The notes under the pieces: model-generated
Told to the model about the DNA's origin: nothing
Databases searched by the model: none
Seen by the model: the letters and a program-made list of their open reading frames with translations, nothing else
Shown: positions 5,641 to 29,796 of the stretch, in pieces
Position numbering within the stretch: the stretch's first letter is position 1
Layout of the letters: every line of letters begins with the position of its first letter
Origin: Paramacrobiotus metropolitanus
Lineage: Eukaryota; Tardigrada; Eutardigrada; Parachela; Macrobiotidae
Assembly (NCBI RefSeq): GCF_019649055.1
Contig: NW_026570277.1
Coordinates: 682,001-746,000, forward strand
Length of the DNA: 64,000 bases
Reading direction: 5' to 3'
Made by a program: the position numbers and the translations under genes

Positions 5641-5741
5641 GTTCACCGCGGGCCCGCTTCTTACAGTGCACACTGTACGCACTACGCAGTAATTACTCGT
5701 ATTATGATGATTGGTAAAGTGGTTGCTCGGGTTAATGAAGT

Positions 5742-8862: not shown

Positions 8863-8867
8863 GTAAA

Positions 8868-9995: not shown

Positions 9996-10009
9996 ATCAT
10001 GTTTCCAAG

Positions 10010-11352: not shown

Positions 11353-11363
11353 TGGTAGCAGAG
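11353..11363 (+). other. Primer binding site, initiator Met tRNA
   Basis: TGGTAGCAGAG begins directly after the LTR. It is complementary to the 3' end of animal initiator methionine tRNA, including CCA. Confidence 0.75.
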
Positions 11364-11530
11364 CCGACAGCGGTTCTCTGATTTGAATTGATTTGTTTCA
11401 GGCAAAGTTGGCCTGTTATTTGATGTGGAAACCCGACCAGTAAGGCACAGGTCTGTACGGACAGCAAAGCGCACACCACAAGCGGTGAACTGCCTCATTT
11501 GACGTGGATTTCCAGCTTCGGTTTTCGGTA

Positions 11531-11835
11531 CGGTATCTTCAGCGAAGAACCGTGCTGTTTCCTTAGCTGTGCAAGAGTTCAAGAGTTCAGTCGACAGTGT
11601 TCCTCGGTGTGGAGTCTTCAGCGAAGACCCACACTGGTGTCACTGTTACTCGGCAAGGCTTCAGCGAAGCCTAAGCCGTGGGCCACAAGCGGCGAAGCGC
11701 TAAAAGGGGCGCACGGAAAAGACCCGATCAGACTCCTCCAAACTGGAGTAGAGCACCACTACTGTTGCTACGGTAGTCAGCCGGCACAGTAGCATACAAA
11801 AAGCGGGCGGCACAACCGCTACGGAAAAGCGGCAG
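11531..11835 (+). ncRNA. Structured leader RNA: three AGC-loop hairpins and following stems
   Basis: Three hairpins share CTTC-AGC-GAAG tips: 11531-11552, 11607-11634 and 11651-11678. The stems differ in sequence but stay paired (TCTTC/GAAGA, GTCTTC/GAAGAC, GGCTTC/GAAGCC), with a bulged A in the first two and an A-rich internal loop in the third. Further stems follow, including CTCC-AAACT-GGAG and GCCACAAGCGGCGAA. The last word is repeated in the 3' UTR (28331 and 28513). The position between PBS and gag is where dimerisation or packaging signals lie in retroelements (inference). Confidence 0.6.
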
Positions 11836-12224
11836 CGCGGGAACGGACGGTGGAGAAGAATTGGATCATCTGGATCACTTTCCCGTGGAACGGACGGTTA
11901 ACAGGTAGAAAAACCGTTATTAATTACGGGATTGGCTAGTTGGTAAAATTAGCAATTTTCATTGGTCCGTACTGAGCTGAGCGTAGAAGTAGGCGGAGTT
12001 TTGCACACGGCGCGCATGTCTGGCCGTTGACCGTGACGTCAGGCAGATATAAATTTTAAGAGGAGTAACGTGATTGGTCAGTTATTTGAGCTGTGATTGG
12101 TCGAAATTTGAACTGAATAATTTGAGCTAGCGGACCAATAGGAACGAAGTAAACAACGTAAATGGGTATTTTCCGTTGAACTTGAACTGTAATGGGAAAT
12201 TTGATCTGAGATGAGATAATTGAG

Positions 12225-12750
12225 ACGGAAAATGACCTTTTGAGTTTAGACAAAGGAAAAGTGACCTTTGATTGAATTAAGCTAGAAAGTGACCTTTAAC
12301 TTGAATTGAGCCAAAAAGAGACCTTTTGACAGAAATCGAGTTGGAAAGTGACCTTTTGAGTTGAGTTGAATCGGAAAGTGACCTTTAGGACCAGAACGTG
12401 ACCTTTGACTTTGAAAAGTGACCTTTACTGAAAAGCTGGAATTGACCAAATTGACCTATTTAAGTGACCTTTATGATCTGAAACTGAACGGTGACCCTTA
12501 TCGAAGTGAAATTGAACTGAATAGTGGTACAGCGATATCAGCAGATGTAGGATTTCATTCGCAAACGTGTTTCAAACAGTAAAAGCTGTTTCGAAATTTT
12601 GTCCGAAAGTAACCTTTTAGGGCAAATCTCTCGAACTTTTTATCAAAAAAGTGACCTTTAAACAGGACTCCGTCGAAATTTTTCAGTCGAAAAGTGAACT
12701 TTAATAAGGACTTAGAAAAATTTCGGAAGTACAAAGTGACCTTTAGGACA
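12225..12750 (+). promoter_or_regulatory. Leader array of TGACCTTT (AGGTCA half-sites)
   Basis: About 11 exact TGACCT words, nearly all GTGACCTTT, plus several one-base variants, within 525 bp and all in one orientation. Spacing is mostly 20-40 bp, separated by AT-rich linkers. On the opposite strand each reads AAAGGTCA, an extended nuclear-receptor half-site. The same word recurs throughout the rest of the element. Confidence 0.75.
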
Positions 12751-12819
12751 ATTGAATAAACCATACAATAACGTTTGTGTGAGAACAATTGGCAGGAGCG
12801 TCCAAGTTATCCGATCAAC

Positions 12820-14505
12820 ATGGACAAAGACAAAGAAGAACCGACATCCAACAGCAGTCAGGGAAGCAAAAGCTCCCGCAGCTCACAGCAAAGCGCACCG
12901 AACCCGTACAAAAAGGACTTGCACACATACTCACGTCCAGTTGGACATGAGCGGAACACTCGAGCGCCCAAGGCATTCGAGAAGAAGGATTCACGAGGCT
13001 CTGATAGCACTTATCAGAAGGCGCTCGAGGCGGTCGCCGATCAGGAAAGCTCCAGAGACGACCAGAAGCACACTCCCACATTCATGGCGGGAAGTGATCT
13101 GATGAACCAGATAAAGGTCACCGGGGAGGAGAAGTCCACAGAAACAGGAGCGGAAGCAACGGGGGCATCACAGCTGGATGCTACCATCAGCGGAACGAAC
13201 GAGCAGGATAAAAATGCGAACCTGACTCAATCGGAAATGGAAAAGACAAAGGTCACCGAAGAGGAACTGGCCGAACTGGGATTGGATGACCTTTCACTGA
13301 ACGATAAGACCGCAGACGATGACCTTTTTGCAACTCCAATGGTCTCAGATGAATCCAACGAGTCATACTTCACAGATGATGACGCAACGATGAACATGTC
13401 CTTTCAAACTGCAATGAAAGAGGCTGACCGAGCAGAAGAAGTGACCCCGTTTAAGGATATCCCCGAACATTTAATTGACCGGACACAGAATGGAAAGGTT
13501 ATCAATGTACGACCACAGTCACCAAACAGTCCTACGTTAACTCTGAGGAGACGCGTAAGGGAGCTGGAGAATGAACTTGAGGCCACTGAACGTCAAGCGG
13601 ACAAGCGGAAACAGGAGTATCGAGATAGATTATCGACACTCGAAACTCGCTTATTCGAATTGGAACAGCAACAGGGTGACCTCCAGAGCTCCGCAGACGG
13701 TTGGAAAGTCAAATATGAGCGACAAAAGGAAATTGCAGAAGAGTACCTAAAGATGGCAGATGACAGAGAAATGGAAGGTCATCTCGCTGTCAGCGACCTC
13801 AATGAAAGCATGTCGGAAGAGTCAGCGGAAAGGTCACGGCACTTAGCCGAATTGAAGGACGAATGTGACCAGTTACGCCAAAAGGTCATCGAAGCGGAGG
13901 CAAAGCGGGACGAGTATGCGGCTAACTTTGCGGGGGTCACACAACGATTGACAACGCTAGCAACAGAGACCTTCAAACTCAGAAACGATTTGAAGCTACG
14001 AGACGAAGCCTTCAGCACTCTGCAAAGCGAGTCAAAAGGTCATCAGGAACGTGCAGATGAAGCCGAAAGATTACGTAATGAAGCGATTAAAGCGAAACGT
14101 GATGTAAGAGACCTTATGGCATCGGAAGGAGAAAAGTGGAAGGAAGAGATTAAAAAGGTGAACGATGAAAATGAAAAGGTCACCGCAGACGTTCAAAGGG
14201 TCACAAAGGAAGGGCTTAAGTGGCAAAAAGAAGCACGGCGACTGGATACAATGGTCACAACACTGGAGCTGAAGGATAAAGAATGGCAACAACAAGTCGC
14301 TCAGAAGAACCAAGAAGTCACAAGGCTGAACGCTGAATTGCTCGAGATGACCACTACAGCACTGGCGAAGGACGACGAGTTGATTGCAATTAAGGATCAG
14401 GTGAGATCAGCCGCTGGACAATATCAGCAACTTGAAAGGGAAACAACTGAGCTGGTCGAACACATCAAAAAGATGGAACGGGAAAATGAAAAGGTCACCC
14501 AGTAG
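12820..14505 (+). CDS. gag: Gag part 1: disordered N-terminus and long coiled coil
   Basis: The start is ATG 12820 (MDKDKEEPTSNSS), the first good ATG after the leader. Residues 1-240 are charged and probably disordered. About 245-560 is a long heptad-rich coiled coil (for example LRRRVRELENELEATERQ), unusual for a retroelement Gag. The frame stops at TAG 14503, yet the same frame continues for 496 codons and the coiled-coil pattern resumes immediately, so the stop is either a nonsense change or a readthrough site. At least ten AGGTCA/TGACCT words lie in this segment, read in different frames as KVT, DLS or GH. It forms the structural core of the particle by family analogy; the coiled coil probably drives assembly (inference). 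Confidence 0.75.
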   Translation: MDKDKEEPTSNSSQGSKSSRSSQQSAPNPYKKDLHTYSRPVGHERNTRAPKAFEKKDSRGSDSTYQKALEAVADQESSRDDQKHTPTFMAGSDLMNQIKVTGEEKSTETGAEATGASQLDATISGTNEQDKNANLTQSEMEKTKVTEEELAELGLDDLSLNDKTADDDLFATPMVSDESNESYFTDDDATMNMSFQTAMKEADRAEEVTPFKDIPEHLIDRTQNGKVINVRPQSPNSPTLTLRRRVRELENELEATERQADKRKQEYRDRLSTLETRLFELEQQQGDLQSSADGWKVKYERQKEIAEEYLKMADDREMEGHLAVSDLNESMSEESAERSRHLAELKDECDQLRQKVIEAEAKRDEYAANFAGVTQRLTTLATETFKLRNDLKLRDEAFSTLQSESKGHQERADEAERLRNEAIKAKRDVRDLMASEGEKWKEEIKKVNDENEKVTADVQRVTKEGLKWQKEARRLDTMVTTLELKDKEWQQQVAQKNQEVTRLNAELLEMTTTALAKDDELIAIKDQVRSAAGQYQQLERETTELVEHIKKMERENEKVTQ

Positions 14506-15996
14506 GAATCCTTTAAATTGCAGGAACACTTACGAAAGGTCAACTTGGAAAATTCGGACTTAAAGAGAGAAAGGGAAGAACTTCATTTGAGAACTAAACG
14601 ATTGGAAGACGAGAACAAGGCGCTCCAGACGTCTAACAAACACAAAGATGAACAACTCCTACAATACGGAGTTAAAACGGCAACAGTGGAGTCCCCTCCG
14701 CCCAGTTACAGCAAGGCGCATGAAACGGGCACGGGCAAAAGTTTCCACTTTGAAATGCCACTACGAACTGGTACCGGTAAAGGAAGCGTAAAAGCGGAAC
14801 GAGAAGGTGAAAAGGGCAAAGAAGACAAAGAGCCACCTTCGGAAAGTTACCCGCATATGAGTCGAGGTGACCCTTCACAATTTCCCTCGCACTTTGAAAC
14901 AAACGTGTTCATTGATGAAGGGCGACGAGACAGACCCTCCAGCCGGCAGGAGCGCCCTAGGAAATCCCGTTATGGAAAGGCGAGACGAAATCAAAGTGAT
15001 GACGGAAGTAGCGAAGAACATGATGACCAGAGAGCAGAAAATACAGCGGTGCAATTGACAAAAGCACTCAACTCGATGGCCAGGAAAACGCCACTTATGA
15101 CCTTTGACGGCAGTCGTGACACAGTGAGTGGGTGGACACGATTGGTGAAAGAAACCCAAAGGACTTATCAGTTGACGGGCGACCAAATCATGATTGAGAT
15201 AGCCAGCGCAGTGAAAGGTCCTGCAAAAACATGGTTTGAAGGAGAAAAGGACATCGCAGCAGAAGATGGAATCGAATACTCAATAACCGAATGGATGGAC
15301 AAATTTAAAGATGAATACGGTGACCGAGATGAAGAAGTCCTAGGCTTACGTGAGGCCTATGCAAGGAAATTTGAACTCGGAAAAGAATCGCTTGACCAAT
15401 ACTATCAAGCGATGATGCGGTTTAAGGCAAAGAGAATCATTACTGAGAAACAGGCCGTGGGCTTCTTAATCAAAGGATGTAGAGTCGACAATGAGCTCTA
15501 CAAAGCCCTGCGCATACAAAAGTGCAAGACGCCAACGGACGTGAAGGATTTCTTTCGACATTGGGCCACCGGCGAAGAGAAATATAAGGCACCTAAAGGT
15601 CAACGTAACCAGGAATACGTGACCATCCGCCAAGGCCAAGTCGAAAATGTGCCGCAACAGAGAATGGCAGCTGCACCAGTTCAGCAACCAGCTGAATACC
15701 GAGTGGAGACTCCGGTTAGAGAGGTCACGGAAAAAGTGACCTTTATCGACAGTCAGACGGGGCAACCGATAACGTACGCAATGGTAGCGGCGATACAAGC
15801 GGCAGCTCAAGTGAGACCGGTACCTCAGAATGTGGCTCCACCGGCACCACAGAATATGGCCCCTATGAATGTCGTGTTACCACAACAAGGGGGGGGTAAC
15901 GGAAATTTCGGTGGAAATGGATACGGTAATGGAAACTGGAATGGAAGCTTTCAGAATCAAGGGCAAGGTCAAGGCAACTTTCAGCCAAACAGATGA
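14506..15996 (+). CDS. gag: Gag part 2: end of coiled coil and capsid domain
   Basis: In the same frame as part 1. Opens with the last coiled-coil heptads, then a basic linker. From about 15090 to 15600 comes a retrotransposon capsid-type helical domain: MTFDGSRDTVSGWTRLV, AVKGPAKTWFEGE, ITEWMDKFKDEYGD and ESLDQYYQAMMRFK are the usual Gag_pre/retrotrans_gag landmarks. It ends in an Asn/Gly/Gln-rich tract and a TGA at 15994. After the TGA the frame stays open into the zinc knuckle. The capsid domain assembles the particle shell. With parts 1 and 3 this makes an unusually large Gag of more than 1,200 codons. Confidence 0.8.
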   Translation, partial: ESFKLQEHLRKVNLENSDLKREREELHLRTKRLEDENKALQTSNKHKDEQLLQYGVKTATVESPPPSYSKAHETGTGKSFHFEMPLRTGTGKGSVKAEREGEKGKEDKEPPSESYPHMSRGDPSQFPSHFETNVFIDEGRRDRPSSRQERPRKSRYGKARRNQSDDGSSEEHDDQRAENTAVQLTKALNSMARKTPLMTFDGSRDTVSGWTRLVKETQRTYQLTGDQIMIEIASAVKGPAKTWFEGEKDIAAEDGIEYSITEWMDKFKDEYGDRDEEVLGLREAYARKFELGKESLDQYYQAMMRFKAKRIITEKQAVGFLIKGCRVDNELYKALRIQKCKTPTDVKDFFRHWATGEEKYKAPKGQRNQEYVTIRQGQVENVPQQRMAAAPVQQPAEYRVETPVREVTEKVTFIDSQTGQPITYAMVAAIQAAAQVRPVPQNVAPPAPQNMAPMNVVLPQQGGGNGNFGGNGYGNGNWNGSFQNQGQGQGNFQPNR

Positions 15997-16584
15997 AACC
16001 AGAACTATCAGCGGAATCAAGGGTCACGAACAGAGTTCAAGTTCCAGATGATCGACGGATGGGTGGCGAACAACGTACAGATGTGCCAATACTGTATGTA
16101 TGGCAACCACCAGACACAAGGATGCAAATTCGCCAACACACCACCGGAACTGAACCCGAATCTGTTTGCCTTCAGAGAGTGGCAACGTCTTCGCGCAACG
16201 GGCGGATGGCAGCAAGCGGTGGCTAACGGATATGACTTGATTACACAATGGTATCAGGCGAAAGCGAACTTCCAGAATCAGCAAGGAAATGGAAACGGTA
16301 ACTATGGAAATGGAAATGGCGGCGGCCAGAACGGTGGCTACGGCCGTGGTGGCTTTGGCCGCGGTGGCTTCAGAGGAAGGGGCAGAGGCTTCGGCCGCGG
16401 AAATTTCAGAGGAGGCCAGAACAATGGAGGCGGCCAAGGAAACTACCAACAGGGTGGTGGCCAATACAATAACGGCAATGGACAAAACCCTAACCCGGCA
16501 AATGATATTGGGCAACAACAAGGAAATGTGCAGGGCGCGCAACAGGGAGGGGCGCCGGTTCAGGGAAACGGGCAAGATCAGTAG
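15997..16584 (+). CDS. gag: Gag part 3: nucleocapsid zinc knuckle and RGG tail
   Basis: In the same frame, after the TGA. A single CCHC knuckle (C-X2-C-X4-H-X4-C, bases 16084-16125) is followed by a Gly-rich RGG region with GGYGRGGFGRGGFRGRGRG (about 16330-16430) and a Gln/Asn/Gly tail. Both features bind RNA in other nucleocapsid-like proteins. The frame ends at TAG 16582, inside the stem of the frameshift hairpin and 12 bases past the slippery heptamer. This is the layout expected where most ribosomes terminate and a minority shift into pol. Confidence 0.8.
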   Translation, partial: NQNYQRNQGSRTEFKFQMIDGWVANNVQMCQYCMYGNHQTQGCKFANTPPELNPNLFAFREWQRLRATGGWQQAVANGYDLITQWYQAKANFQNQQGNGNGNYGNGNGGGQNGGYGRGGFGRGGFRGRGRGFGRGNFRGGQNNGGGQGNYQQGGGQYNNGNGQNPNPANDIGQQQGNVQGAQQGGAPVQGNGQDQ

Positions 16585-16605
16585 GCACCGGTGAGCCTAC
16601 TGATC
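16563..16605 (+). promoter_or_regulatory. -1 ribosomal frameshift signal joining gag and pol
   Basis: Canonical slippery heptamer GGGAAAC at 16563-16569, positioned G-GGA-AAC in the gag frame. A 6-nt spacer (GGGCAA) follows, then a perfect 11-bp hairpin: GATCAGTAGGC (16576-16586), loop ACCGGTGA, GCCTACTGATC (16595-16605). The loop bases GGTGA (16590-16594) can pair with TCACC at 16620-16624 or 16641-16645, allowing an H-type pseudoknot. Frame -1 from here is exactly the pol frame. Confidence 0.88.
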
Positions 16606-18305
16606 GACCCGACCCTAAATCACCAGATAAAAGGGAAAGGTCACCACTGCAGAATGGTACTGCAGTGAATGTGACCACTGCAACGGCTATAAGGATGCCG
16701 TCAGCGCAAAACGGAACGGCTATATGGATGCCGTCATCGCAAAAAGAAATTGGAGCGGTTATAAGGATACCGCCACAGAATCAAAGGTCACCGCAGAATG
16801 GTACTGCGAGTGGAAACGTTTAAGCGGATAAATGGTCACCGCAGAATGGTACTGCGAGTGGAAACGCGCAACGGGACCAAAGGTCACCGCAGAACGGTAC
16901 TGCGAGTGGAAATTGTCGTGACGGTAGCGCGACACTGCAAAAAGTGCAGCAAAATGAAAGGTCACCGTACTGCAGCGAAGAAGTGTTAGCGCAACGACGC
17001 GCACAACGGAACGCAAAGATTAAACAGGCGTTGCTGAATCAGAAGAAACCGCAGAACGATACTGCGCAAGAGGAAAATGAGCAACATGCGAAATTCCGGA
17101 AATACTTGGCAGAAAATGATAAAGCGAATGAACCAGGTTGCGACTGTTATGGAGAGATAAAGCCAAAGTTCTGGAATTGTTCAGAGGACGAAGAAGAGAA
17201 GTTGATAAGGCAAAAATGGATGGAGCAGAATATCACTAACAGTAAAGACGAAAGGTCACCTTCTGTTGGAAAGGTCCAAGTGAAAGGTCAAGGAGTGAGT
17301 GTGAATGTTAAAGGTCACGACGATAGCGTCGTGTTGAAAGGTCAAGAAACAGACTTGACACTGCGAACAGCGCAGCAAAAGAATAGCGAAACGGCACAAC
17401 AGAACTCCGAAGACTCACTTGTGGATGCAGTAACACTGCAGCAGAAGGAAAGGTGGCAAAAAGTGGCCTACAGACCAAATGAGAATCACGGGATGTGGAT
17501 ACCTGTGACGCCGAAAGCAAAGCTGAAAGCGAGAATGTCACAAGAGGACTACTGGGACATGCAACAGTTGCGAACGCAATGTGAAAGAAAGCGACTGGAA
17601 GAGTTGGTTACCGGGAAACCAGCGCAAAAGTCACCGAACACAGTCCCAGTATTTGACCCAGCTGAATATAAGAAGACATTCGCTGACGCGAATTATCGAC
17701 AAAATGCACCGCCAGAGGATGAACCGCCGAATTATGGAGAAAAAGTCCCCATACAAAAGCTGACAGGTGGCGGATTTGTCATGAAGCGCAACGAAAGGTC
17801 ACAGGACTTAGCGCAAAATGAACAAAAAGGACGGTCAAATGAGATGGCGCAAACGCAACAGAGTAACGCAGTCGAAAGGTCACGGGACTTATCACAAGCA
17901 CTGCAAAAGGATGCAAATGACAAGTCACCAGCCCGAACAGACGGGATGTCTTCGCAAGTTGACCCAACGAAAACGAATAATGAAGTATCTGCAAAAGTGA
18001 TGCAATGGATGACCGAAAAAGGATATGACACGGTTACATACGAAAGGTCACCAGATGAGATGAAAGACAGTGAAGCAGACGAACTGAAGCAAGCCGACCA
18101 AATAACAAGCGAAGTCATCGAGAAGTTGCGAGATAAGCGAAATGAAAACCGTAAAGAGGAACTGATTCATCAGACGATAAATGAAGTGACTAAAGGTCAC
18201 GCGGATAGCACAAAAGCAAATGAGCAAGTGCAGAATGTTAGAAAGGTCACCAGTGGTAAAACGGCCACGGAGAAACAAGTTGACAGGACAAAGCCGCGAA
18301 AATAA
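16569..18305 (+). CDS. pol: Pol N-terminal linker with RSPQNGTA repeats
   Basis: The -1 frame opens at the slippery site and runs, with one TAA at 16821, to TAA 18303. The first 120 codons contain four copies of (R/W)SPQNGTASGN-like peptide, encoded by tandem GTCACCGCAGAATGGTACTG DNA. The rest is hydrophilic, rich in Lys, Glu and Gln, and has no known domain. AGGTCA words are dense here, often read as ERSP or KGH. It may be a spacer between Gag and protease. The in-frame stops fall only in low-complexity sequence. Its function is unknown. Confidence 0.6.
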
Positions 18306-19808
18306 TACGATGTTTGAACTGACGTTCCACACAGGATTGATAAGCTGAGCGAAATATTGAAAGGTCACAGCACTCCAGCTAAAGGACAAGTGTTTCCCGA
18401 TATGGATCCGGGACCAGTATCGCTCATTCCTGTGAAATGTAAGATTCACACCTTGAAGATTCAAAACGGAAAATTGCCCAAGAGAATTGAAGCATACACT
18501 CACGAAGTGAAAGTGGGAGACATAAAGGTCAACGCAATGTTGGACACCGGCGCTGAGACGTCGCTAATCAGCAAACCGTTTTGCGAGAAGAATGGACTTC
18601 ATATGCTCCCACTACCACCAGACAGGCTGGTGCGAATAAATGGAATTAGTGGAACGTCAGGTTTCATGGTGACACACTACTGTGTAGCACCAGTGACCTT
18701 AAGGAAAAAGACCAGCGAACATTCCTTCTACGTCCGACCGAAGTGTGACGACGTACAGGTGTTATTGGGATTCGACTTCTTAGAGAAGAAGTTCGTACTA
18801 ATGGATAATGAAGGCGAAGAAGAAAAAGAAGATGACCCCAAACCAGTCGCCAAGGTTCAAGTCGGAAAGGTCACCGAACTCGTAAAACAGGCGGGAAATG
18901 CTCAAACAGTTAATAAAACGCTAATCCCAGTACCAGAGGCACCGGGAAACGAAAAGAAAGAGATGGCGCAAAAAGAATTGTCAACATTTGAGCAGTTGAA
19001 AGTGATCCAACAGGAGATTGAAAATACATTAAACCGGACAATGCTGCCACAAGAGGGAAGAGAAAAGGTCATCCCAGTACCACAGGCACCGGGAATGACG
19101 AGAGTGCAGCAGAACGAGATTAGCCAACGGATAATCCCGGTACCAGAGGCACCGGAGAAGAAAAGTGAAAGTGGAAAGGTCAAAGAAGTTAACGAAAAGA
19201 AAAAGGAACCGCTTGCGCCGGATATGGATGAGGCGATCATATTTCTCCCGGACGGGAGAAGTATGATCGCAGATGACTGTAAGCAAGGAGACACAGAAAA
19301 AGAAGGTGTTGAAAAAGCTATCCCAGTACCAGAGGCACTGGAAATAAAGACGGCTAAAGTGGGGAAGGATAAAAAGAGTGAAAGGTTACGGGTTTTGAAA
19401 CGAATAGCTGAAGAGGAACAGATGTTTACAAGCGAAATCCGCAACAAGGCACTCGAACAATTGAAAGGTCACCGAACAGAAAAAGAACCAGAGGTCACCG
19501 AAATATCCTCGGAGGATAAAAGCGTGACCCCAGTCGAATGTGAACAAGAAGCCACAGCACGGGAAGATGTTAATCCGCAAACGAGTCAAAGGATATTAAC
19601 TCCAGAAGAACGAGCCAGGAGTTGTCACCACGGTTACTTTGAGGATCCGTGTAGAATACAACCTCAATGGGAATGTGCTGAATGTCGTGAAAATGCCTCC
19701 CAAGATGACCTTTCAGAATGGCCGAAATGTAATGCCGCATTAGCAGACCTCAAAGGTCATGCCCAAAAGGAAGTAAAAAGTATCATGCGGACAAACGAAA
19801 TGTGGTAG
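18306..19808 (+). CDS. pol: Pol: aspartic protease with PVPEAPG-repeat tail
   Basis: In the same frame as the linker, after a second stop (TGA 18315). The retropepsin core is at about 18480-18800: the MLDTGAETSLIS active-site loop (DTG at 18543), the NGISGTSGF flap region, and VQVLLGFDFLEKK, matching the ILG-D/N-F strand. It cleaves Gag-Pol into mature products by family knowledge. The tail holds four copies of IPVPEAPG-like peptide (about 18930, 19075, 19135, 19325), and a Cys/His cluster (CHHGYFEDPCR...CAEC) lies near 19620-19700. The frame closes with TAG 19806, yet continues open into the RT segment. Confidence 0.8.
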
Positions 19809-22800
19809 CCACATATTGAGCGTTATCACTGTAACAGATACCGGACCTGGTTGTCATGCGTGAAGAGCTTCATTATCGGGAAAGGAAGATGGCTAAACCA
19901 TTGGTTGCAACGTGTCGAGAAAGGAATCCAAGATCCTCTCGATCCGGTAGCAACAGAAAGGAGATTTGAACGAGAGATAGAAGAGATGACCGAAGAAGGA
20001 GAAATGTGGGAAGAAGCGAGAGTTGACCTTTTCTGGGACTTCCGTGTGAACCACATGTATAAAGGTGAAGGGAGAACGATCATCTTCCCGGCAGGACTTG
20101 GTACACCTGTCTACGAATCACTTGAAGTGTACTACAACGCGTTAAAAGAGGGAAACGAAAAAGCATTCGAAAAATATTGGAATAAATTTGAAGAGGAAAT
20201 CCCCAGATTTGATGTAAAAGAGATGCGAGAATTACAGGTTACCCGGAAAAGAAGGTTACCGGGATTAATGCAAAAGAAAAAGGTGACCTTTGCACCAGAT
20301 CCAGATGGAGTGGACTACCCAGAACGAGGTGGCGACACGTGGTGTATGTATGAAACGATTCCAAATGATGAATGGGTTACCGAAGAATTGATGGCAAACT
20401 GCATCTTTGTTGGTCCCAAACGACCTAAAAGTTACGAAACAGTCCAACAGAATGAAGCTGACAAGGGACCCGTAAAAGAAGCGGAAAAAGAGGAACCAGT
20501 TGAAGAGATAGTCGAAGGAGGATCGAACGAAACGGAAGAAAGTTCAAAGTCGGCTTTCGACATCGCACGGATGTTAACGGACAGAGGAGAAATGTGGAAG
20601 AAGTTCAAAGAAGAAGTTGAGAGGATATCGAATGAACAACAAAACCCAGTAACGGAGGCAAAAAACGGGGAAAGGTCACTCGATAACGGTGAGGAATGTC
20701 CGCCGGTCGAGTTGACCGAAAAGCCGTTAACGAGCCCCGAAGAAATAAATGAACTGGAAAAGTCAAAATCGGACGAAGAGAGGTCAAACTCCGATCAATC
20801 AGAAAGGTCACCAACGAGAATTCGGGTAGCAAGGAGTCACCCAAGAGTCGCCGCACGAAATGGGCGAAAGGCAAAAGAAGGGGACAAACCTCTGCTCAAA
20901 AATTCGAAAGCGAAAAAACTTAGCGATTCGCGGGAAAACGAAAATGACCTTTCATCAGAAGACGAAGGAGTTGATGAGCGCCCAATTGAAAAAGTTGACA
21001 AAGGTCAAGTTACTGCACAAGAATATGAGAGCAGTAACTCCGACTCCGAGTGGACGAGTTCAAGTGATAACTCAACGACTTCGGAAGATTCACGTGTAAG
21101 TGACCTTTCAGAACAAGAAGATTTAATGGACTTGGATGAAGATGACGAAGTAGATGAGGAAAAAGAAAAGGATATTAAAGTCAGAAGATTGAAAGTGGAA
21201 AAGGCTAGGATGTCGAAAGACGTGATCAAAGTCCTCAGTGACCAAAGAATCAAATTGAAACCGTCCAATTGCACGCGCGTAAAGGTCAAGATGGGAAAAT
21301 ACGCACCGGCCCAAAACAAGTTGATGTTTACACCGGTCCCACAAGTGGAAACGGAAGTGCAACCATTGGCAGGAGTAACGGACCACAGAGGAAAGTACTT
21401 TGAAATCGTCATTGCGAATCATAGTAGCAAATACCGGATCGTGAAGAAAAATCAGCTTCTCGGCTATGTTGAGCCGTATGAACATATGGAGAATGTAAAG
21501 GTCAACGCTGGCACAGTGAAGAATATGCTCGATGATCCTGAGGTGGACGATACAACGAAAGCCGAGTTGAAAAAGATAATCGAAAACTTGAAATTGGGAC
21601 CTGATCTTACCCAAGAACAAAAGAACGACGTGTACAACGCGTTCTGGGAATTCTGGAAGGTCCTACCGACATCAAAGAAACCGTACGGAGATGTTAAAGG
21701 GGTCACTCACGTAATTGATACGGGAGATGCGAAGCCAGTTAAATGTAACCCGGCCAGAACGAGTTGGACAGGCCGCGAGTTTATAACGAAACATATCGAA
21801 GAGATGTTGGCACAAGATGTAATTGAACCGTCAGACGCCGAGTGGAGTTTCCCAGTCGTATTGGCAGTAAAGAAAAATGGCGACGGAACAATGGGAACAA
21901 GATTTTGCGTCAATTACATCATGCTTAACAAGCTAACGAGAAAGAATAATTACCCGCTACCAAATCCGAATGAGTTGCTCGACGCGTGCGCAGGCAACAA
22001 ATATTACGGAAAAATGGATTTACAAAGTGGATTTTGGCAGATCCCAATGGATCCAGCGTCAATCAACAAGACGACCTTTGTTACGCAAGATGGAATGTAC
22101 CGATTTAAAAGAATGCCATTTGGCGTATGCAACGGACCAGCAACATTTCAATTGTATATGGATAAAGTACTCTCGAAAGCGAAAAGAAAAGGATGCGTTT
22201 TCGGGTACATTGATGACGTTATTTTCGCTGGAAAAACTTGGGAAATTTTCATGCAGAATTTGAGAAATGTCCTGATGAGCCTAGTTGAAGCGGGATTTAC
22301 GATTAAGCCAACGAAATGCGAATTCGGAATGAGACAAATGGGATTCCTGGGTCACATACTCAGCGAAGTTGGAATCAGAATGGACCCGGAAAAGGTCACC
22401 GCGGTCTCCGAGTTCAAACGGCCTCAGACTGAAAGACAATTAAGGTCATTCCTTGGACTGGCGAACTATTACCGCAAATTCATAATGGGATATGCACAGA
22501 AGACTTCCCACTTATATGAACTGCTGAGACAAGATAAGCACGTGAAAGAGGACTGGACAGCAGTTTATGAGGAAGAGTTCAATAGCTTGAAAAAGTTGTT
22601 GTGTGAAGGTCCAGTATTGGCAAAGTTTGACCCCGCAAAACCGACCGTCATTAAATGCGACGCGAGCAAAGAAGGAATCGGAGCCGTACTGTCACAAGAT
22701 GGACATACGATCGCGTACGCCAGTCGTGTCCTACATGGAGCGGAGAAAAATTACGGTGTAACGGAATGGGAATGTCTGGCAGTAGTGTTCGCTGTCAGGA

Positions 22801-25046
22801 AATTTAAGCCGTATATCGATTACGCAGAATTCACCGTAAGGACGGATCATCAGGCGCTGACCAATTTGCTAAGGTCAGAGACGAATAAAGTCGGAATGAA
22901 CCCGCGCTTGACAAGATGGGCAATGGCATTACAAGGTCATCAATTTAAAATCGAATACAAACCAGGAAAATATTGTGACAACGCAGACGCGTTATCAAGA
23001 GCACCAATTGAAGGTCCGACGTGTCAGGAGGAGGAATTTGATGAGATCCCAAACTTCGAGGATTATAAGAAGGAATTTGACACGAAAGAACCAGCAATCG
23101 AAATCGGACAGCTGTTCCTGCAGATGGTGGAACAGAGAGAGAAGCGGTTGAAGGTCACTTCAGCTACGGCGAATGAGTCGGCTGAAAACGAAGCAAAAGT
23201 GAACCGGGTGAAAAGTTGGTTGCCCACCGTCAGTGACTTAAAGGTCACCGGACTTGACACGGAATCTAAAATGCAGAATGGAAAGGTCACTGGACTCGAT
23301 GAAACAGCGGAGAATAGAGATGACCTTTGGGAAACGGACAAAGTTACACAAGCGTTAAACGAGTGTCCGATTAAGTTGCTGAGATTCCCAAAACAGATGA
23401 AAAAAAGGTTTAAACCGTTACCACGTTGCAAGGTCATCAAAGACTGGAATGAACTCAGTACGGCGACAGTCCGCATTGTTAACCTGCAAGGTGACGAAGA
23501 AGAAGAGGATGATTCGAATCTGCAGCTACGGAATAAACAACTGAAGGATCCTCATCTGGCGATGATTATAGACGAATTGGAACATCTACCAGACGCGGAA
23601 ACAAGATCGAAATTCGAAGTACATTACCAGTTGTGGAACGGCATATTGTACCGAGTAAAAGATAAGAATGGGAAACTTGAAAGGTCATATGTCGTACCGT
23701 TGTCAATGCGAAGAGCGATTATCCACGCATTGCACGACGAGAAAGCGGCAGGACATCTGGGATTCGAAAAGACATTATCTGCAATCCGACTACGATATTA
23801 CTGGGACAGAATGAGCACCGATGTGAAGAATTACATTCTTGCGTGCAATGGTTGCCAGTTCCGCAAAACACCGAGGAAATGCCCACCCGGTAAATTGCAA
23901 GAGATAAAGGTCGGACATCCGTTCTTCCGAGTGTACGCTGATCTGAAAGGACCGCTGTTACCGACGAAGAAACGTGGATACAAGTACATAGCGGTATTTA
24001 TCGACCAACTGACGAAATACGTGATCGCGGTACCGATGAAAACAGCAACGGCTAAAGAATTCGCTAAAGTGTTCGTGAAGCACGTGATATTGGTACACGG
24101 AGCACCGCACATCCTACATACGGATCGCGGACGACACTTTACAGCGGAAGTATTGGCAAAGGTCACCAATGTGTTTAAGATTAAACACACATTCGGAACG
24201 GCATATCACCCAGAAGGTCAAGGCCAAGTTGAAAGGCAGATGCAGACGATTGCGGATGGCTTGGCACAATATCTGAAGGCGGGAAATGAGCGAAAATTTA
24301 ACAAGTATCTCCCATATGTTATTTCGGCGATGAACAGAGTCGTGCACGCTACAACGGGATATTCAGCATATTATATGCTAAACGGCAGAGAAATGACAAT
24401 GCCGGAAGATGTGGTTACGAGAACGAATATACCCGATGATTATGGAACTCCAGACGAATGGGTTGAGACCATGAAAAAGAACTTGACCTTTGCTGAAGAA
24501 GTGGCGAGATGTAACATTAAAGATGCTTATGAGAAGAATGCGGAAATTTACAATAAGAAGAAGTCGGAACCGAACTTCAAAGTGGGAGATTTCGTACTGA
24601 TACGATTACCAAAGGACACGAAACAAGGGAAGAAAGAAAACCAGTCGGACTTTAAGTCGAAATACGATAAAGTGTGGAAGATTCTGAGTTTCCCGCGAAC
24701 AAACGAAGCTGAGGTCATTGAGCAGAACCCTAAGAAGGAAGCAGACTTAAAGGTGGTCTCGATCGACCGATTAAAGCTGTGGCATCCGCCATTACCTGAG
24801 GAGAAAGATTCGCAAAAAGTATCAGAGCGTACCTCGAATTTTTTCGAACCACCTCTGCTACCTGAAGTAGAACAAGGAACAGAGCGTACTCAAAAAGACT
24901 CGGCAGAATCTTTTTTCGAACCACCTCTGCTTCCCGAAACGGAGAAAGCTAACGGAAAAGAAAATGAATCAGAGCGTAGTCCGAAAAATGCTCAGTCACA
25001 CAACAAAAGCCATTTTTCGAACCACGCACTCTGCTACCTGATATGA
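19809..25046 (+). CDS. pol: Pol: reverse transcriptase, RNase H, integrase
   Basis: A single open frame of more than 1,700 codons without a stop. RT at about 21700-22480: FPVVLAVKKNGDG, NNYPLPNPNELL, the GYIDD catalytic box (bases 22206-22217), RQMGFLGHI and LRSFLGLANYYRKF. RNase H at about 22640-22990: KCDASKEGIGAVLSQ, the WECLAVV Glu, RTDHQAL. Integrase: zinc-binding H-H-C-C at about 23720-23870, then catalytic Asp (VYADLKGPL), Asp (HTDRGRHF) and Glu (GQGQVERQMQ), with a DFVLIRLP / KVWKI C-terminal barrel. No chromodomain was recognised. The first ~600 codons are an acidic linker, and the C-terminus has FFEPPLLPE repeats. It copies the RNA into DNA and inserts it. The uninterrupted frame suggests the enzymes are intact. 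Confidence 0.92.
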   Translation, partial: PHIERYHCNRYRTWLSCVKSFIIGKGRWLNHWLQRVEKGIQDPLDPVATERRFEREIEEMTEEGEMWEEARVDLFWDFRVNHMYKGEGRTIIFPAGLGTPVYESLEVYYNALKEGNEKAFEKYWNKFEEEIPRFDVKEMRELQVTRKRRLPGLMQKKKVTFAPDPDGVDYPERGGDTWCMYETIPNDEWVTEELMANCIFVGPKRPKSYETVQQNEADKGPVKEAEKEEPVEEIVEGGSNETEESSKSAFDIARMLTDRGEMWKKFKEEVERISNEQQNPVTEAKNGERSLDNGEECPPVELTEKPLTSPEEINELEKSKSDEERSNSDQSERSPTRIRVARSHPRVAARNGRKAKEGDKPLLKNSKAKKLSDSRENENDLSSEDEGVDERPIEKVDKGQVTAQEYESSNSDSEWTSSSDNSTTSEDSRVSDLSEQEDLMDLDEDDEVDEEKEKDIKVRRLKVEKARMSKDVIKVLSDQRIKLKPSNCTRVKVKMGKYAPAQNKLMFTPVPQVETEVQPLAGVTDHRGKYFEIVIANHSSKYRIVKKNQLLGYVEPYEHMENVKVNAGTVKNMLDDPEVDDTTKAELKKIIENLKLGPDLTQEQKNDVYNAFWEFWKVLPTSKKPYGDVKGVTHVIDTGDAKPVKCNPARTSWTGREFITKHIEEMLAQDVIEPSDAEWSFPVVLAVKKNGDGTMGTRFCVNYIMLNKLTRKNNYPLPNPNELLDACAGNKYYGKMDLQSGFWQIPMDPASINKTTFVTQDGMYRFKRMPFGVCNGPATFQLYMDKVLSKAKRKGCVFGYIDDVIFAGKTWEIFMQNLRNVLMSLVEAGFTIKPTKCEFGMRQMGFLGHILSEVGIRMDPEKVTAVSEFKRPQTERQLRSFLGLANYYRKFIMGYAQKTSHLYELLRQDKHVKEDWTAVYEEEFNSLKKLLCEGPVLAKFDPAKPTVIKCDASKEGIGAVLSQDGHTIAYASRVLHGAEKNYGVTEWECLAVVFAVRKFKPYIDYAEFTVRTDHQALTNLLRSETNKVGMNPRLTRWAMALQGHQFKIEYKPGKYCDNADALSRAPIEGPTCQEEEFDEIPNFEDYKKEFDTKEPAIEIGQLFLQMVEQREKRLKVTSATANESAENEAKVNRVKSWLPTVSDLKVTGLDTESKMQNGKVTGLDETAENRDDLWETDKVTQALNECPIKLLRFPKQMKKRFKPLPRCKVIKDWNELSTATVRIVNLQGDEEEEDDSNLQLRNKQLKDPHLAMIIDELEHLPDAETRSKFEVHYQLWNGILYRVKDKNGKLERSYVVPLSMRRAIIHALHDEKAAGHLGFEKTLSAIRLRYYWDRMSTDVKNYILACNGCQFRKTPRKCPPGKLQEIKVGHPFFRVYADLKGPLLPTKKRGYKYIAVFIDQLTKYVIAVPMKTATAKEFAKVFVKHVILVHGAPHILHTDRGRHFTAEVLAKVTNVFKIKHTFGTAYHPEGQGQVERQMQTIADGLAQYLKAGNERKFNKYLPYVISAMNRVVHATTGYSAYYMLNGREMTMPEDVVTRTNIPDDYGTPDEWVETMKKNLTFAEEVARCNIKDAYEKNAEIYNKKKSEPNFKVGDFVLIRLPKDTKQGKKENQSDFKSKYDKVWKILSFPRTNEAEVIEQNPKKEADLKVVSIDRLKLWHPPLPEEKDSQKVSERTSNFFEPPLLPEVEQGTERTQKDSAESFFEPPLLPETEKANGKENESERSPKNAQSHNKSHFSNHALCYLI

Positions 25047-25546
25047 GTGGAGATAAACCGAGGAAGAAGAGAGGAAGACCCAGGAAAGAAGACAAAGATT
25101 TCGAGACAGCAGTTACAAAAAAGTTGAACGCAGAAGCTGGAAATTTGGCAGAAAGGTCACCAGCCACCGGAGAAGAAATCGAAGTAGCAGAACGCGCTTC
25201 GCAAAAGGATTTTGAACCTAATCAAAAGCCTTTTTTCGAACCACGCACTGCTACCGGAGATAAGAATGACCTTTCGAAAGGGCGAACTGGCGCTGAGATA
25301 TCAGAGTGCGATTCGAATTCTTTCGAACCACGCACTGCTACCGGCAATGAGAACGACCTCATAAGAAAGAGAAAAGAGGAAATAGAGGCGGTCAAATCAA
25401 AAGCTGAACAATTGGGCCGCGATATAGCGAAAGCAATTAATGAGCGAAAGGTCAAGGAGAACAAGAAGAAACCAACTCCTACGGAACTGCTAACCCAAAA
25501 GGCGAACCTGTGGACGCAGCCGAGCAAGACCTTCTTGATCGGATAA
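25043..25546 (+). CDS. Small ORF with AT-hook, overlapping pol by ATGA
   Basis: ATG 25043 overlaps the pol stop as ATGA, a layout used for termination-reinitiation elsewhere. It encodes 167 residues. Residues 5-16 (PRKKRGRPRKED) are a classic AT-hook (RGRP core), a minor-groove DNA-binding motif. Two FFEPRTATG repeats follow. These repeats continue, at the DNA level, the TTTTTCGAACCAC series at the end of pol. In this frame the upstream sequence also reads as another FFEPRT repeat, so the ORF could instead be the pol C-terminus reached by a frame change near 24985-25020. It is Lys/Glu-rich with no other domain. A DNA-binding role alongside the AGGTCA array is an inference. Confidence 0.6.
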   Translation: MSGDKPRKKRGRPRKEDKDFETAVTKKLNAEAGNLAERSPATGEEIEVAERASQKDFEPNQKPFFEPRTATGDKNDLSKGRTGAEISECDSNSFEPRTATGNENDLIRKRKEEIEAVKSKAEQLGRDIAKAINERKVKENKKKPTPTELLTQKANLWTQPSKTFLIG

Positions 25547-25698
25547 CTAAAGGACGCGAAAACAAATAACCCACACAAATACGACTAAGGAGATTTATGA
25601 CAATAAAAATAGGAGTTGGGAAGGTGTAAATGAAAGGTCATCACCGCGCAAAAAGTTAGTCAAAATTGTTTCATTGTTAAAGAAGGTAAGCTCAGTTT

Positions 25699-27174
25699 AT
25701 GGACAGATTGGAACGACAGAATTCAGATAATTCCGATTCGGAAAGTATTGGAAACCCACTAAAAACATCGACACCAATAAGAATGGAAGGGGAATACGGT
25801 TACGACACCTCATACGGGGAAGGATCGACGTCGTCAGCGGGAACGGCTCAGAATGAACCCGGAACAGTTCAAGGCGGTTACTACGGCGGCCAGGGGTATT
25901 ACGTGTATCACGATCCAGGACAACAGATGAATTACCAGGACACGGTTAGCTGGGTGCACCACGGCTCACCTGCCGGAACCCAGTATTCGGGACAAGCAAC
26001 GGGCGCCCCCTACCAACCGTACCCGGGATCGTATACCCCACCGGCGGGACCCTCACAGGTGATAATGGGACCGGCAAGAATGTTGATGCCGCCACCGCAA
26101 CAGACTACACCGAGTCGATTTACGGGACAGGGAGGATTCGGCGGAATGATGGTAACTCCAGCGCGATCACAAAGGTCATCCCCGATATTACTGCCTTTTC
26201 CGGAGACGGGAGGCTTGTCACTGTCGGACATCGGAGCGCCTCGCATGAGAACACCGCAGCAACTGGGAGCGCAGCGTCCTCATCGTAATTCGCCACACAG
26301 AGGAGGAAGGCGACCGAGAGGCATTCTACCATCACTGGGTCCCAACCTGGATTAGACTGGACCAGATGGATTACGACTTACGCCCCCAGGCGAACCCTCA
26401 ATACATGAATACGCACCGAAACTCCGTTTGGATTTGAGAGACGATGACCCGAACTTGAATTTAATAGTGGATAAGAAGGAAAAACTGACGGAAACCGACT
26501 TAGAAGCCATTCGCGACTTCAATCGGAAATGCCGTGACCTTTATAGAATCCACATGCGAGTTGAAGACGAACACGCATGGTATGGGAAGTTAATCAGCCT
26601 GGAAGCTGTTATCAAACCATGCCACATTGCCATGAAAGATAAAACGAAACAGGTTGAAGCAAAGCGCAAGGAATACGCAATACAAGTTGCATCGATGGTG
26701 CAATATCATCCGACGATAAAAGGTAGAAGGTGGCCGGAGACTGTCGAAAAGATCCTTAGATATCTCAAGGTGTTCCCAGAAACAAGACCGACTACCAGCG
26801 TCGCGGGACCATCCAAAACAATAGCTGAAAAGGACGCCCCGGTCGATGAAATGACGGACGAGGACCTGTTGGCAACAAAGAAGAAAATCGATGCTGAATT
26901 AACTGAACGAGCAGAAAGGTCACGGGCCAGCTCGACCGCAGGATTAGTACGTGGACGCACTAGTTCGGTTACAGAACCATCTAGCGGAGCCACGAAGAGT
27001 GGAAAAAGAGTAAGGTCACCAACGATAAGCCCAAAAGATACTGACAAGAAAGGGCAGCGAACGAAGAAGGCCACGTCAGGTAAAGCAACACCAGCTGAGC
27101 CGGCAAAGCCACAAGGCCCAGTCCCAGTGTTTAGTGGATTTGAGTCTATTGGATGTGCCGCTGGATACGACTGA
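25699..27174 (+). CDS. Accessory reading frame, part 1 (unknown function, one internal TAG)
   Basis: ATG 25699. One frame runs from here to TGA 27172, broken only by TAG at 26353. The first half is Gly/Pro/Tyr-rich and disordered, with a PPPQQT tract. The second half has a helical, charged region (KAIRDFNRK-like, KQVEAKRKEYAIQ) and a Ser/Lys-rich tail. There is no signal peptide, no membrane segment and no resemblance that I recognise to envelope, RNase or protease. It lies where errantiviruses carry env, but nothing supports that function. TGACCTTT and AAAGGTCA words persist here. It is probably a second structural or regulatory protein. Confidence 0.5.
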
Positions 27175-27999
27175 TCCAATTGGGATGACACAATTTTATT
27201 ACACAGATTATCCCGAACGACAAGAATATGTGGCTTAGTACGTTTTACGACATGTGAACCCAGCCTTCAAGTTGCTTGCAGCAAGAGCATCGATAGGACT
27301 ACAGGTGGATCCTAAGGACTATGCCGCAAAAAGGATGGGGCAAAAGGTCTTTGCCGCGAGACTGGCACATTACAAGACACAGAATCAATTGGTGTCTAAT
27401 ACTATGAAGGACGACATTCCACCGTTCTTCCGAGCTCATGTCGCTAAATTGGGACAACCGATGGAACATATCAGCATAGCGCACACAGCTCGAAAGGCGC
27501 TGAAAAAGTGTACGACACGAATGGAAAAGGCAACTTGATACAGCGCCATGCCTCCCAAGTCGAAGAAAGGGTCAACAAGATCAAAGATTCCCTGGGAAGT
27601 GACTACGTCGAACCAGTGGACGGAGTTGAAACGTACATCGACGAATTCCTGGTGAAGAAAAGCGACCGGCGCCCGGAACGCGCTCCTAACCAGATGGGAC
27701 GACGTGGTATACGGAACCAGCAGCTTCGGGATAATCTCGCTGATGTGCAACGTCGATTGGCCAATGACCCTAATAACCGGAAATTACGACTGGAAGAAAA
27801 TGACGCACGTCATCGACTTGAGGCGGTCAAGCGGAGCCGTCAAGGAAAAAGTCGTGGCCAGCGAGAAGTTGACCCGTCAAAGGTCATGGAAGTTGATTCA
27901 ACTGAACCAATCGACCGGACATCTGACCGTAATCAACCCGAAAGCGCTAAGAAGCGTCCGCCAAGAGATGGCGAGGGCGATTCAAATGAAATGGAATAG
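27175..27999 (+). pseudogene. Accessory reading frame, part 2 (frame-shifted continuation)
   Basis: Protein-like sequence continues after 27174, but in other frames. Frame +1 is coding-like from about 27120 to TAG 27237 and on to TGA 27538 (94 codons from 27254). The frame of part 1 then resumes at 27508 and runs to TAG 27999 (163 codons, Arg/Asp-rich, QLRDNLADVQRRLAND). The two overlap by 31 bases, so a -1 type change would restore the first frame. Either two indels have broken a ~760-codon protein, or these are separate overlapping ORFs. The function is unknown. Confidence 0.45.
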
Positions 28000-29437
28000 T
28001 GTTGATCGTTAGGATCACACTATTGAAAGGACGTCTACGGCATTTTGTCGGTACGTCACAAAGATGAAAAATGGTGTTGTATAAAGGTCGTGACATGTGA
28101 CATGTTAACATTAACTGTATTTGTGTATTTGTTGTTTGCAGCATTTATAGCACAGAATTGCCTAAAGAAATCATGTGGAATACTATTGGGGTTGAAATTG
28201 ATTCGGTCTATAAAGCCGGCCCCAAGGGAGTTGCTACGGCAGTTAGCCGGCCCTCCTCTCTAAGCGACTCAGTGTTATAAATGCACAAGAGAAACTACGG
28301 TAATCAAGCCGAATCTCTTGGAGACGAAAGTGGGCCACAAGCGGCGAAAAAGAGAAAGACAACAGGTGGAATTTGATGAGGTTAACTTAATGCGGCAACC
28401 AGCCGGCCTCATTAGAGTTGTTACGGTAAACTGTGCCGGCACTCTTTTTAAGCGATTCAGTGTCAAAATTAAAACGAGAAAAACTACGGTAACCAAGCCG
28501 GATTTCTCGTAGTAATGTTAGCCACAAGCGGCGAACAAGAGTAAAGATTAAATGTGGAAATTTCATGGGGTAAACTCAATGCGGTAACTAGCCGGCCCCA
28601 TCAGAGATGCTTCGGTAAACTCGCCGGCACTCTGGCCGCTCGAGGCATACTGAAGTTGGATGTGCGACGGAAAGGTCAAACTGCAAGTTTTACCAGGGAG
28701 GCAAGCGAAGAAGTGCTTGAAGGCCGCAGAAAATTGGCTAAGTTCCTCCATGACCTATAATGGAAATTTGAAGAGAAGTCGGATGACCCTTGGGACCATT
28801 ACCGCCCAAGAGAGTCATCGTATCGGAATTCAAGTCGCATGACCTTTGGGACCATTAACCCAAAATGAGTCGCACATCTCAACTGATCATCTCAATAAAG
28901 GATGACCTTTACCAGGGAGGAAGCGAACTACGCTTGTCTACATGACGTCCCTCCATGACCTTTATGGATCTTATTTTGAAGTCGTACAATTGATACGCAC
29001 CTTAGTCCAAAGATGAAGCAGTATTCCTAAGTCGTACTTGATACGCACCTGATTCTCAAGCGGATTGTGATGAAGTCGCATTACGGATGCGCAGGCTTGC
29101 TCAACGGAGCGGAATGGATTAAAAGTGCGGAAAACGGTGGACAGGATATGTGACCTTTTCGAGTCAGAAATGGAGGATCCTAGTCTACAATTTGATTAAT
29201 GCTTTTGTTGATCTGTTACTGTTGATCTGTTCCTAATGATTTGATAGTATTTTTATAATGGGATCTCTTTATTCCACATTGTATTAAATGGAATTGTGCC
29301 TTTACGGAATTGATGTGATAAAATGGATTAAGAGGATTTGATGTTTTTGAGCACGCACAGACACTGGCGACCGTCGTCTTCTCGTGGATTCGGGAGTGTG
29401 TCCAGCCTCACAGGAGCTCGGCATCCCCCCAGAGGCA
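28000..29437 (+). other. 3' UTR of the giant element: repeated modules
   Basis: Non-coding. 28190-28640 holds three related modules of about 190 bp containing AGCCGGCC, GTTGCTACGG-like and CCACAAGCGGCGAA words, the last also present in the 5' leader at 11683. 28690-29100 holds shorter repeats: TTTACCAGGGAGG twice, CATGACCTTTGGGACCATTA-like twice, and AAGTCGTAC..GATACGCACCT twice plus a variant. All five or so AGGTCA words after 28740 are in the TGACCT orientation. Confidence 0.6.
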
Positions 29438-29548
29438 TGTGAGACCAGGATCACTAGCGTTCACGTCAGTGGCGCTACGCCTGTGGCGCTACGCCTTAGG
29501 ATTACGTGTCTGTGTTGTGTCTCTTCTGATTGGCTTGAGTTGTGTTAG
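29351..29548 (+). pseudogene. Possible retropepsin-like fragment crossing the 3' LTR start
   Basis: A 65-codon frame reads RRLLVDSGVCPASQELGIPP followed by TRITSVHVSGATPVALRLRI. This resembles the DSG loop, LG and flap portions of an aspartic protease. It starts upstream of the LTR and ends inside it. It is short and could be coincidence. Confidence 0.25.
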
Positions 29549-29796
29549 TGGGCGCGGCATAGCACGTGCTGCACAGTGTTACACACTGTTGAATGGGCTC
29601 CACGCTTTACGATCGAGCTGCGCCGATCAGTGTTGATTTTCTGTTGTCGGAATATTCAATATTATTAAAAGTCAGCGATTACGGTGCGACGTTTTGTGTT
29701 TCCGCATAGCTCGCAATCCAGATCGTATTGCTCACTCCACGGGATAGATTCCGTTTCTGTCTCCGTCCCTGGATCCATTCTGGATCTAGCTTTAGA
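29438..29796 (+). repeat. 3' LTR of the giant retrotransposon
   Basis: Same ends (TGTGAGACC...GCTTTAGA) and same length as the 5' LTR, with three differences by eye. Confidence 0.9.

Follow-up and report, generated by a model that had tools for sequence, protein, structure and literature searches.

A short exact word that saturates a tardigrade Ty3/Gypsy retrotransposon and its probable maintenance by selection at the nucleic-acid level

Why should one six-base word occur 90 times in a single retrotransposon, inside its genes as well as outside them? The question is raised by a 64,000-nucleotide stretch of the genome of the eutardigrade Paramacrobiotus metropolitanus (contig NW_026570277.1, C57:682001-746000 in the numbering used here; hereafter the window), from an assembly of 169.8 Mb in 533 contigs. 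Positions 12225-29165 of the window belong to a Ty3/Gypsy long terminal repeat (LTR) retrotransposon of ~18.8 kb, and there AGGTCA or its complement TGACCT is found 90 times without mismatch (59 on the plus strand, 31 on the minus strand), the flanks being far poorer, with 1 in 1-12224 and 10 in 29166-64000. A first-pass annotation of the sequence had estimated about 90 words, about 11 in the leader and about 79 in the rest, and the exact count is the same (11 and 79). Its chance expectation of about 8 was a little low, as 11.8 are expected under a second-order Markov model fitted to the interior between the LTRs (18,085 bases); the strong excess stands.

The enriched unit is AAAGGTCA/TGACCTTT, with 73 occurrences in the interior where 1.5 are expected, and the 9-mer AAAGGTCAC occurs 41 times compared with 0.33 expected. 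In the window and a diverged relative (D; C1:206001-221000, minus strand) combined, there are 125 exact copies of AAAGGTCA against 3.6 expected, and each of its one-mismatch neighbours occurs only 0-7 times, such that the word is nearly all-or-none. The 158 hexamers of the two elements are preceded by A at offset -2 in 134 cases and at -1 in 144, and are followed by G in 5 (1 of 90 in the window). By comparison, 40.4 kb around host receptor genes contains 22 hexamers and 6 copies of the 8-mer. Genome-wide, AAAGGTCAC is found 19,414 times compared with 3,461 for the reversed word, an excess estimated to be worth roughly 390 full-length elements at 41 each.

The 5' LTR (10994-11352), the 3' LTR (29438-29796) and the proximal leader, the 880 bases that follow the 5' LTR (11353-12232, plus strand), contain no word, leaving 10994-12232 free in full; the first word lies 1,239 bp from the start of the element, and the words run on to 29151. 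The 11 words of the leader array (12233-12742, minus strand; words at 12233-12737), which is partly built of 29-30 bp repeat units, all read TGACCT on the plus strand, as do the five of the distal 3' part (28751-29156, minus strand; words at 28751-29151), whereas the 74 words dispersed on both strands between them (13115-28678) comprise 59 AGGTCA and 15 TGACCT. The single orientation in the leader and distal 3' untranslated region was thus as annotated, and AGGTCA does dominate the coding part, at a ratio nearer 4:1 than the 3:1 proposed. Outside the leader the spacing is near random, with a mean gap of 206 and a coefficient of variation of 0.95 in the window and 1.06 in D. Regular or helical spacing outside the leader was rejected, with no clear 10-11 bp phase in the window or D, and paired half-sites were rejected for want of a preferred arrangement in the two elements. 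A likeness of AGGTC to the transfer RNA (tRNA) variable loop was dropped because the flanks beyond +6 share no extension.

The first possibility to consider is that the words are a by-product of protein sequence, encoding favoured peptides (ERSP, KVT and KGH) in low-complexity linkers, and many of the words do fall within low-complexity stretches where these peptides occur. However, the ten open reading frames (ORFs) of the element contain AGGTCA in all three frames (16, 24 and 14) and TGACCT in both stop-free frames (5 and 10), 69 in total, and further words lie in the untranslated leader. Codon-preserving shuffles among synonymous codons (500 per ORF) give means that sum to ~15.7 compared with the 69 observed, and the pol ORF has 24 words against a shuffle mean of 3.6 and a maximum of 9. 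Taken singly, the ORFs are not all significant: for the ORF at 12775-14505 (11 words) one shuffle also gives 11, that at 16048-16584 lacks the word, the ORF starting at 25043 equals its shuffle maximum (3), and those starting at 25699 and 27508 (1 each) fall below theirs. Codon or protein selection as the sole cause is rejected by these shuffles and by the ten-fold lower third-position diversity described below, which leaves this explanation scarcely credible. The view of the first-pass annotation that all three frames are used and that protein selection is insufficient is borne out.

A 4 kb stretch of pol (window 20800-24800) was compared in 30 loci, including the window, of 40 places listed. 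These copies, referred to as clade A, are ~91% identical and contain 19-22 hexamers each; they are related by descent, so that the trials are not independent, and the same copies serve as their own control. The 20 hexamer sites of the window were kept in 96% of copy comparisons compared with 58% for all hexamers, none of 20,000 random sets being as well retained. Each of the 20 is found in 26-30 of the 30 copies; among sites absent from the window, one is present in 28 copies and five in one or two. In the gag and leader regions, the words in common with the window are 29 of 35 for copy L056, 21 of 24 for L057, 13 of 16 for L004 and 13 of 15 for L005, where the retention of all hexamers is 0.39-0.48; in the leader of L056 alone it is 6 of 11.

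Diversity at third codon positions across the 30 copies is 0.019 inside AAAGGTCA (38 positions) compared with 0.204 outside (1,277), or 0.209 at codon-matched positions, with none of 5,000 resamples as low. Four-fold sites behave in the same way (0.019 at 17 positions inside, 0.211 at 496 outside). Where AGGTCA lacks both 5' A's, the four-fold sites are unconstrained (0.195, 9 positions) and the other third positions are constrained (0.026, 10 positions). With all words pooled, 57 third positions have a diversity of 0.048 compared with 0.224 when codon-matched (0 of 20,000 resamples as low). The minimum spans offsets -2 to +6 around AGGTCA, the flanks showing no sign of a partner half-site in the 30 copies, and AGGTCA has the lowest third-position diversity of 31 hexamers scanned in clade A pol. 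AAGAAA in the same stretch also has low third-position diversity (0.038 against 0.166, 8 sites), so that AGGTCA is not alone in this respect.

Relative D extends the comparison to a much more diverged element. Its protein identity to the window element is 32-38% for most pieces on the gag side and after the protease, 60-61% for the protease and Cys/His pieces and 60-85% for those of pol; it has in-frame stops, and its 15 kb contain 71 hexamers. Where codons can be aligned, the window element has 49 words and D has 51, 29 of them common in place and orientation, compared with about 3 expected by arithmetic from 62% identity. Both orientations are shared alike (TGACCT 9 of 13, AGGTCA 20 of 36), and at 7 of the 20 unshared window sites D is one base away from the word. 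The first-pass annotation had proposed testing whether words are gained and lost at an unchanged density, and had named similar counts in codon shuffles or absence from related copies as outcomes that would speak against its claim; the turnover was observed, the shuffles did not reach such counts, and the motif is present in the 30 copies and in D. Taken together, third positions that vary ten-fold less inside the word and turnover at equal number in D indicate that AAAGGTCA is very probably under selection as a nucleic-acid word in A and D.

As both orientations are conserved alike, recognition of double-stranded DNA is likely. The alternative is a signal in RNA, either for packaging or through long-range pairing of GUGACCUUU in the untranslated ends with AAAGGUCAC in the coding part. 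The strand skew would suit such pairing, as the two forms are complementary and all 16 words of the leader and distal end read TGACCT compared with 59:15 in the opposite sense between them. The leader arrays are oriented alike in copies L001, L003, L004, L005 and L056, and in D the leader has 6 of 6 TGACCT at 2061-2283, with three words (2 AGGTCA, 1 TGACCT) farther upstream whose place in the element is unsettled. Pairing, however, would need no fixed sharp word, close pairs in opposite orientation (15 bp or less) are few (1 in the window, 2 in D), and a sister clade (B, below) has both orientations (3 and 3) before its first long ORF. An RNA-level function on its own, one of the suggestions of the first-pass annotation, is thus a poor fit to words conserved in both orientations and is considered improbable. 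A drive without benefit, in which a biased process such as gene conversion, template switching or a nuclease or repair preference makes and keeps the word, would account for the use of all frames and both strands, the constant density and a clade-specific word. It sits badly with the absence of the word from the LTRs and proximal leader and with neighbouring synonymous sites that vary freely, and we know of no biased process of this sort for one 8-mer; it is given a still smaller chance.

Ten further pol loci (4.6-5.4 kb) comprise nine of clade B and one of clade C. In these AAAGGTCA was found in 0 of 10, with 0-3 hexamers each compared with 2.1-2.6 expected. A reverse transcriptase (RT) tree with a midpoint root, comprising 4 of the 30 A copies, D, nine B, two C and five outside sequences (the rows for D and one C being partial), supports A with D (96/97) and B with C (100/99). 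The 9 kb upstream of pol in clade B has a different word, AGGTCGG, with 34 occurrences compared with 3.45 expected, divided 16 to 18 between the strands. A peptide-repeat tract accounts for 12 of them, 6 precede the first long ORF (a region whose LTR limits are not fixed), in both orientations, and 16 lie in two other coding stretches, in several frames and on both strands. The pre-gag ORF of one clade B locus (L069, 1736-2290) encodes low-complexity EVGQ and PT peptides by alternating AGGTCGG and CCGACC. In clade B, AGGTCG occurs 60 times (14.3 expected), AAGTCG 28 (15.1) and AGGTCA 3 (6.4). AGGTCG ranks in the top six hexamers by enrichment in 8 of the 9 clade B pol loci, and of 45 hexamers scanned there the least diverse at third positions are AAGTCG, AGGTCG and CCGACC. 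Codon-matched tests in clade B pol gave 0.096 against 0.224 for AGGTCG (15 of 5,000 resamples), 3 of 5,000 for GGTCGG and 10 of 5,000 for AAGTCG. Of the ARGTCN hexamers, AGGTCA shows the largest rise in A (90 compared with 11.6) and D (68 compared with 13.5), AGGTCG in B and AAGTCC in C (22 compared with 8.8, in one copy). As clade words, these would share the core ARGTC, with the sixth base changing. The difference between A/D and B is clear in counts, its conservation in B is moderate to marginal, and no word is secure in C, AAGTCC being only suggestive. Genome-wide, GAGGTCGG shows only a mild excess (5,730 against 4,198).

A different word in the sister clade suggests that the reader changes along with the element. 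The explanation tentatively favoured, with somewhat short of an even chance, is that AAAGGTCA serves this retrotransposon lineage as a self-recognition word, the reader of which is element-specific or co-evolving. More doubtful, by analogy with bacteria, is a system of clade-specific passwords (AAAGGTCA, AGGTCGG and perhaps one with AAGTCC), placed about every 200 bp in coding and non-coding DNA, by which a co-evolving reader of double-stranded DNA would tell own from other DNA; this would be the counterpart, in a eukaryotic retroelement, of the dialects of bacterial DNA uptake sequences. In either form, a sequence-specific protein would bind double-stranded DNA at single sites and co-evolve with the element; most simply it would be encoded by the element, or it may be a host factor adopted separately by each clade. 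It would coat the integrated copy or the ~18.8 kb complementary DNA (cDNA), with a site roughly every 200 bp, and the benefit would probably arise in cis, for example through nuclear entry, protection of a long cDNA, avoidance of self-integration or an active provirus.

The strongest competitor for the role of reader is a host nuclear receptor, a platform for which had been proposed by the first-pass annotation. Receptors of the ERR/FTZ-F1 and ROR types have sites with C at -2 or T at -1, unlike the A's of the word, and GGGTCA is a variant of the half-site. The 8-mer, including both 5' A's, is identical to the NBRE, the NR4A receptor site, as given in PMC4777543. NR4A, or a different orphan receptor able to bind AAAGGTCA, would occupy each word as a monomer site and open, activate or handle the provirus or cDNA, and monomer binding would explain why there is no spacing rule or partner site. 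The host does have an NR4A-type gene, with DNA-binding domain exons at C45:296.8-298.4 kb that, read exon by exon, encode both zinc fingers and the RRGRLPTKPK extension; the domain, including VVRTDSLKGRRGRLPTKPK, runs across three open stretches. The host genome gives 63 zf-C4 matches, exon pieces being counted separately. GGGTCA is also constrained (0.034 against 0.244, 3 sites, 19 of 5,000). Although the match is striking, it is moderate evidence, because many animal factors have known 8-mers and it was found after the fact. Moreover, the word is all-or-none with few weaker sites, AGTTCA is unconstrained, the words lie in coding DNA with none in the LTR, the expected place of a promoter enhancer, and AGGTCGG of the sister clade is, to our knowledge, neither a nuclear-receptor half-site nor any other receptor site. 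The identity of the 8-mer and the presence of the gene are retained from the platform proposal, a host receptor as the reader is not established, and the sister word points to a reader linked to the element; overall, a host receptor is regarded as rather unlikely.

An element-encoded candidate is the AT-hook ORF (25043-25546, plus strand, 3 words). Its AT-hook, KKRGRPRK, is real and makes the product a predicted DNA binder that could anchor a reader; the first-pass annotation had listed this protein among the possible binders of the word. The AT-hook does not by itself determine the word, because in the shared context KRGRP.K...DFET it is near-identical in the single copies compared from A, D, B and C, whatever their word.

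Several observations weigh against a self-recognition word with a co-evolving reader. These near-identical AT-hooks in families with different words are one, and the exact NBRE match, which favours the host receptor, is another. No element-encoded sequence-specific DNA-binding fold was found in a Pfam search of the eight ORFs other than protease and pol. In both A and D the leader words face one way, an arrangement for which a reader blind to strand has no need. The clade B evidence comes from one 9 kb region and nine related pol loci; the constraint on AGGTCGG itself in pol is marginal (0.118 against 0.221, 184 of 5,000), and 12 of its 34 occurrences lie inside the peptide-repeat tract. Part of the clade B excess may be wider composition, because further CG-containing words are enriched and GGTCGG is nearly one-stranded in pol (146 of 149 as CCGACC). 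In clade C, 7 of 11 AAGTCC are kept in pairwise comparison (mean 0.36), unrelated hexamers doing equally well or better, and AGCCTC was rejected as the clade C word: it is enriched (38 compared with 9.1) with only 3 of 8 kept, and CGAGGCTC shows no excess genome-wide (1,959 against 2,065 for the reversed word).

The remainder of the element is that of a Ty3/Gypsy retrotransposon. Its LTRs are 359 bp each and 99.2% identical, from which the insertion appears young, and Pfam matches follow the Ty3/Gypsy order of protease, RT, RNase H and integrase. All ORFs are on the plus strand. Upstream of gag, 12775-14505 is mostly low-complexity or coiled-coil-like (11 words); it is followed by a gag-like ORF (14518-15996, 6 words), named from its position and homology among relatives, an ORF with a Cys/His cluster (CQYCMYGNHQTQGC) and a GN-rich tail (16048-16584, 0 words) and a low-complexity ORF in the gag-protease interval (16944-18305, 10 words). 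The aspartic protease ORF (18357-19808, 10 words) matches PF13650 at 1.1e-8, and the pol ORF (19851-25046, 24 words) comprises an N-terminal region, RT, RNase H and integrase (RVT_1, RT_RNaseH, Integrase_H2C2 and rve). Its start, 19851-20540, encodes ~230 residues between protease and RT for which a protein search gave three matches, all to elements of this species; a structure model of this region from a three-sequence alignment was of too low a confidence to be of use (pLDDT 38.8). Downstream of the AT-hook ORF are three ORFs without assigned function (25699-26355, 1 word; 26428-27174, 3 words; 27508-27999, 1 word). The eight ORFs besides protease and pol had no Pfam match above the cut-off.

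Directly 3' of the 5' LTR, 11353-11366 reads TGGTAGCAGAG, which we take to resemble the primer site for initiator tRNA-Met. An inverted repeat at 10540-10993 (arms 10540-10632 and 10901-10993, 92%) abuts the start of the 5' LTR with its second arm, suggesting that the retrotransposon inserted at the margin of another element or that its boundary extends farther. A 189-bp tandem repeat (1.8 copies) occupies 28288-28633 in the 3' part. Outside the element, minisatellite-like repeats are common to the flank at 4990-5408 and that of copy L057 (774-971), and two 70-nucleotide repeats with an inverted repeat at 32916-33397 are perhaps a small separate element.

Among known systems, bacterial DNA uptake sequences occur on either strand and also inside coding DNA, more sparsely than the word described here. 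They are its nearest analogue in form, those of Neisseriaceae being a short exact genome-wide word with species dialects and a cognate receptor, ComP (PMC3630211 and PMC3868556). The element likewise repeats a short exact word far above expectation, on both strands and within its coding frames; unlike it, uptake sequences are bacterial-chromosomal and have a known receptor and uptake function. The Drosophila gypsy insulator is a Su(Hw) array between the 5' LTR and gag, with a different motif and sites confined to the leader. The leader array of the element resembles it as a series of protein-site-like repeats, the difference being that the words run on through the genes to the 3' end (79 of 90 outside the leader). 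From other Ty3/Gypsy elements, whose LTRs, protease, RT, RNase H and integrase it shares, it differs by its ~18.8 kb length, extra ORFs and saturation with the word. Human Alu repeats are short and non-coding. They carry HNF4-alpha binding sequences and are alike in being retroelements that spread receptor-site-like sequences genome-wide, with no claim, in the available text, of selection across coding frames (PMC3252374). The NBRE is the identical 8-mer, bound singly by a monomer, and is described as a response element of target genes, whereas the element has scores through coding DNA (PMC4777543). Literature searches aimed at such word-saturated retroelements returned no report among the entries and abstract openings that they covered, and the main text, as available, of a tardigrade paper in Mob DNA (PMC11071193) lacks the word Paramacrobiotus. 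Six pattern matches to relatives in IMG/VR were not confirmed.

One exact word kept at about 75 places over codon choice implies recognition along the whole DNA of the element. If the reader is encoded by the element, retroelements would have a mark of self and non-self; if it is NR4A, the element would have swamped the receptor sites of its host, as the genome-wide excess of AAAGGTCAC would then indicate.

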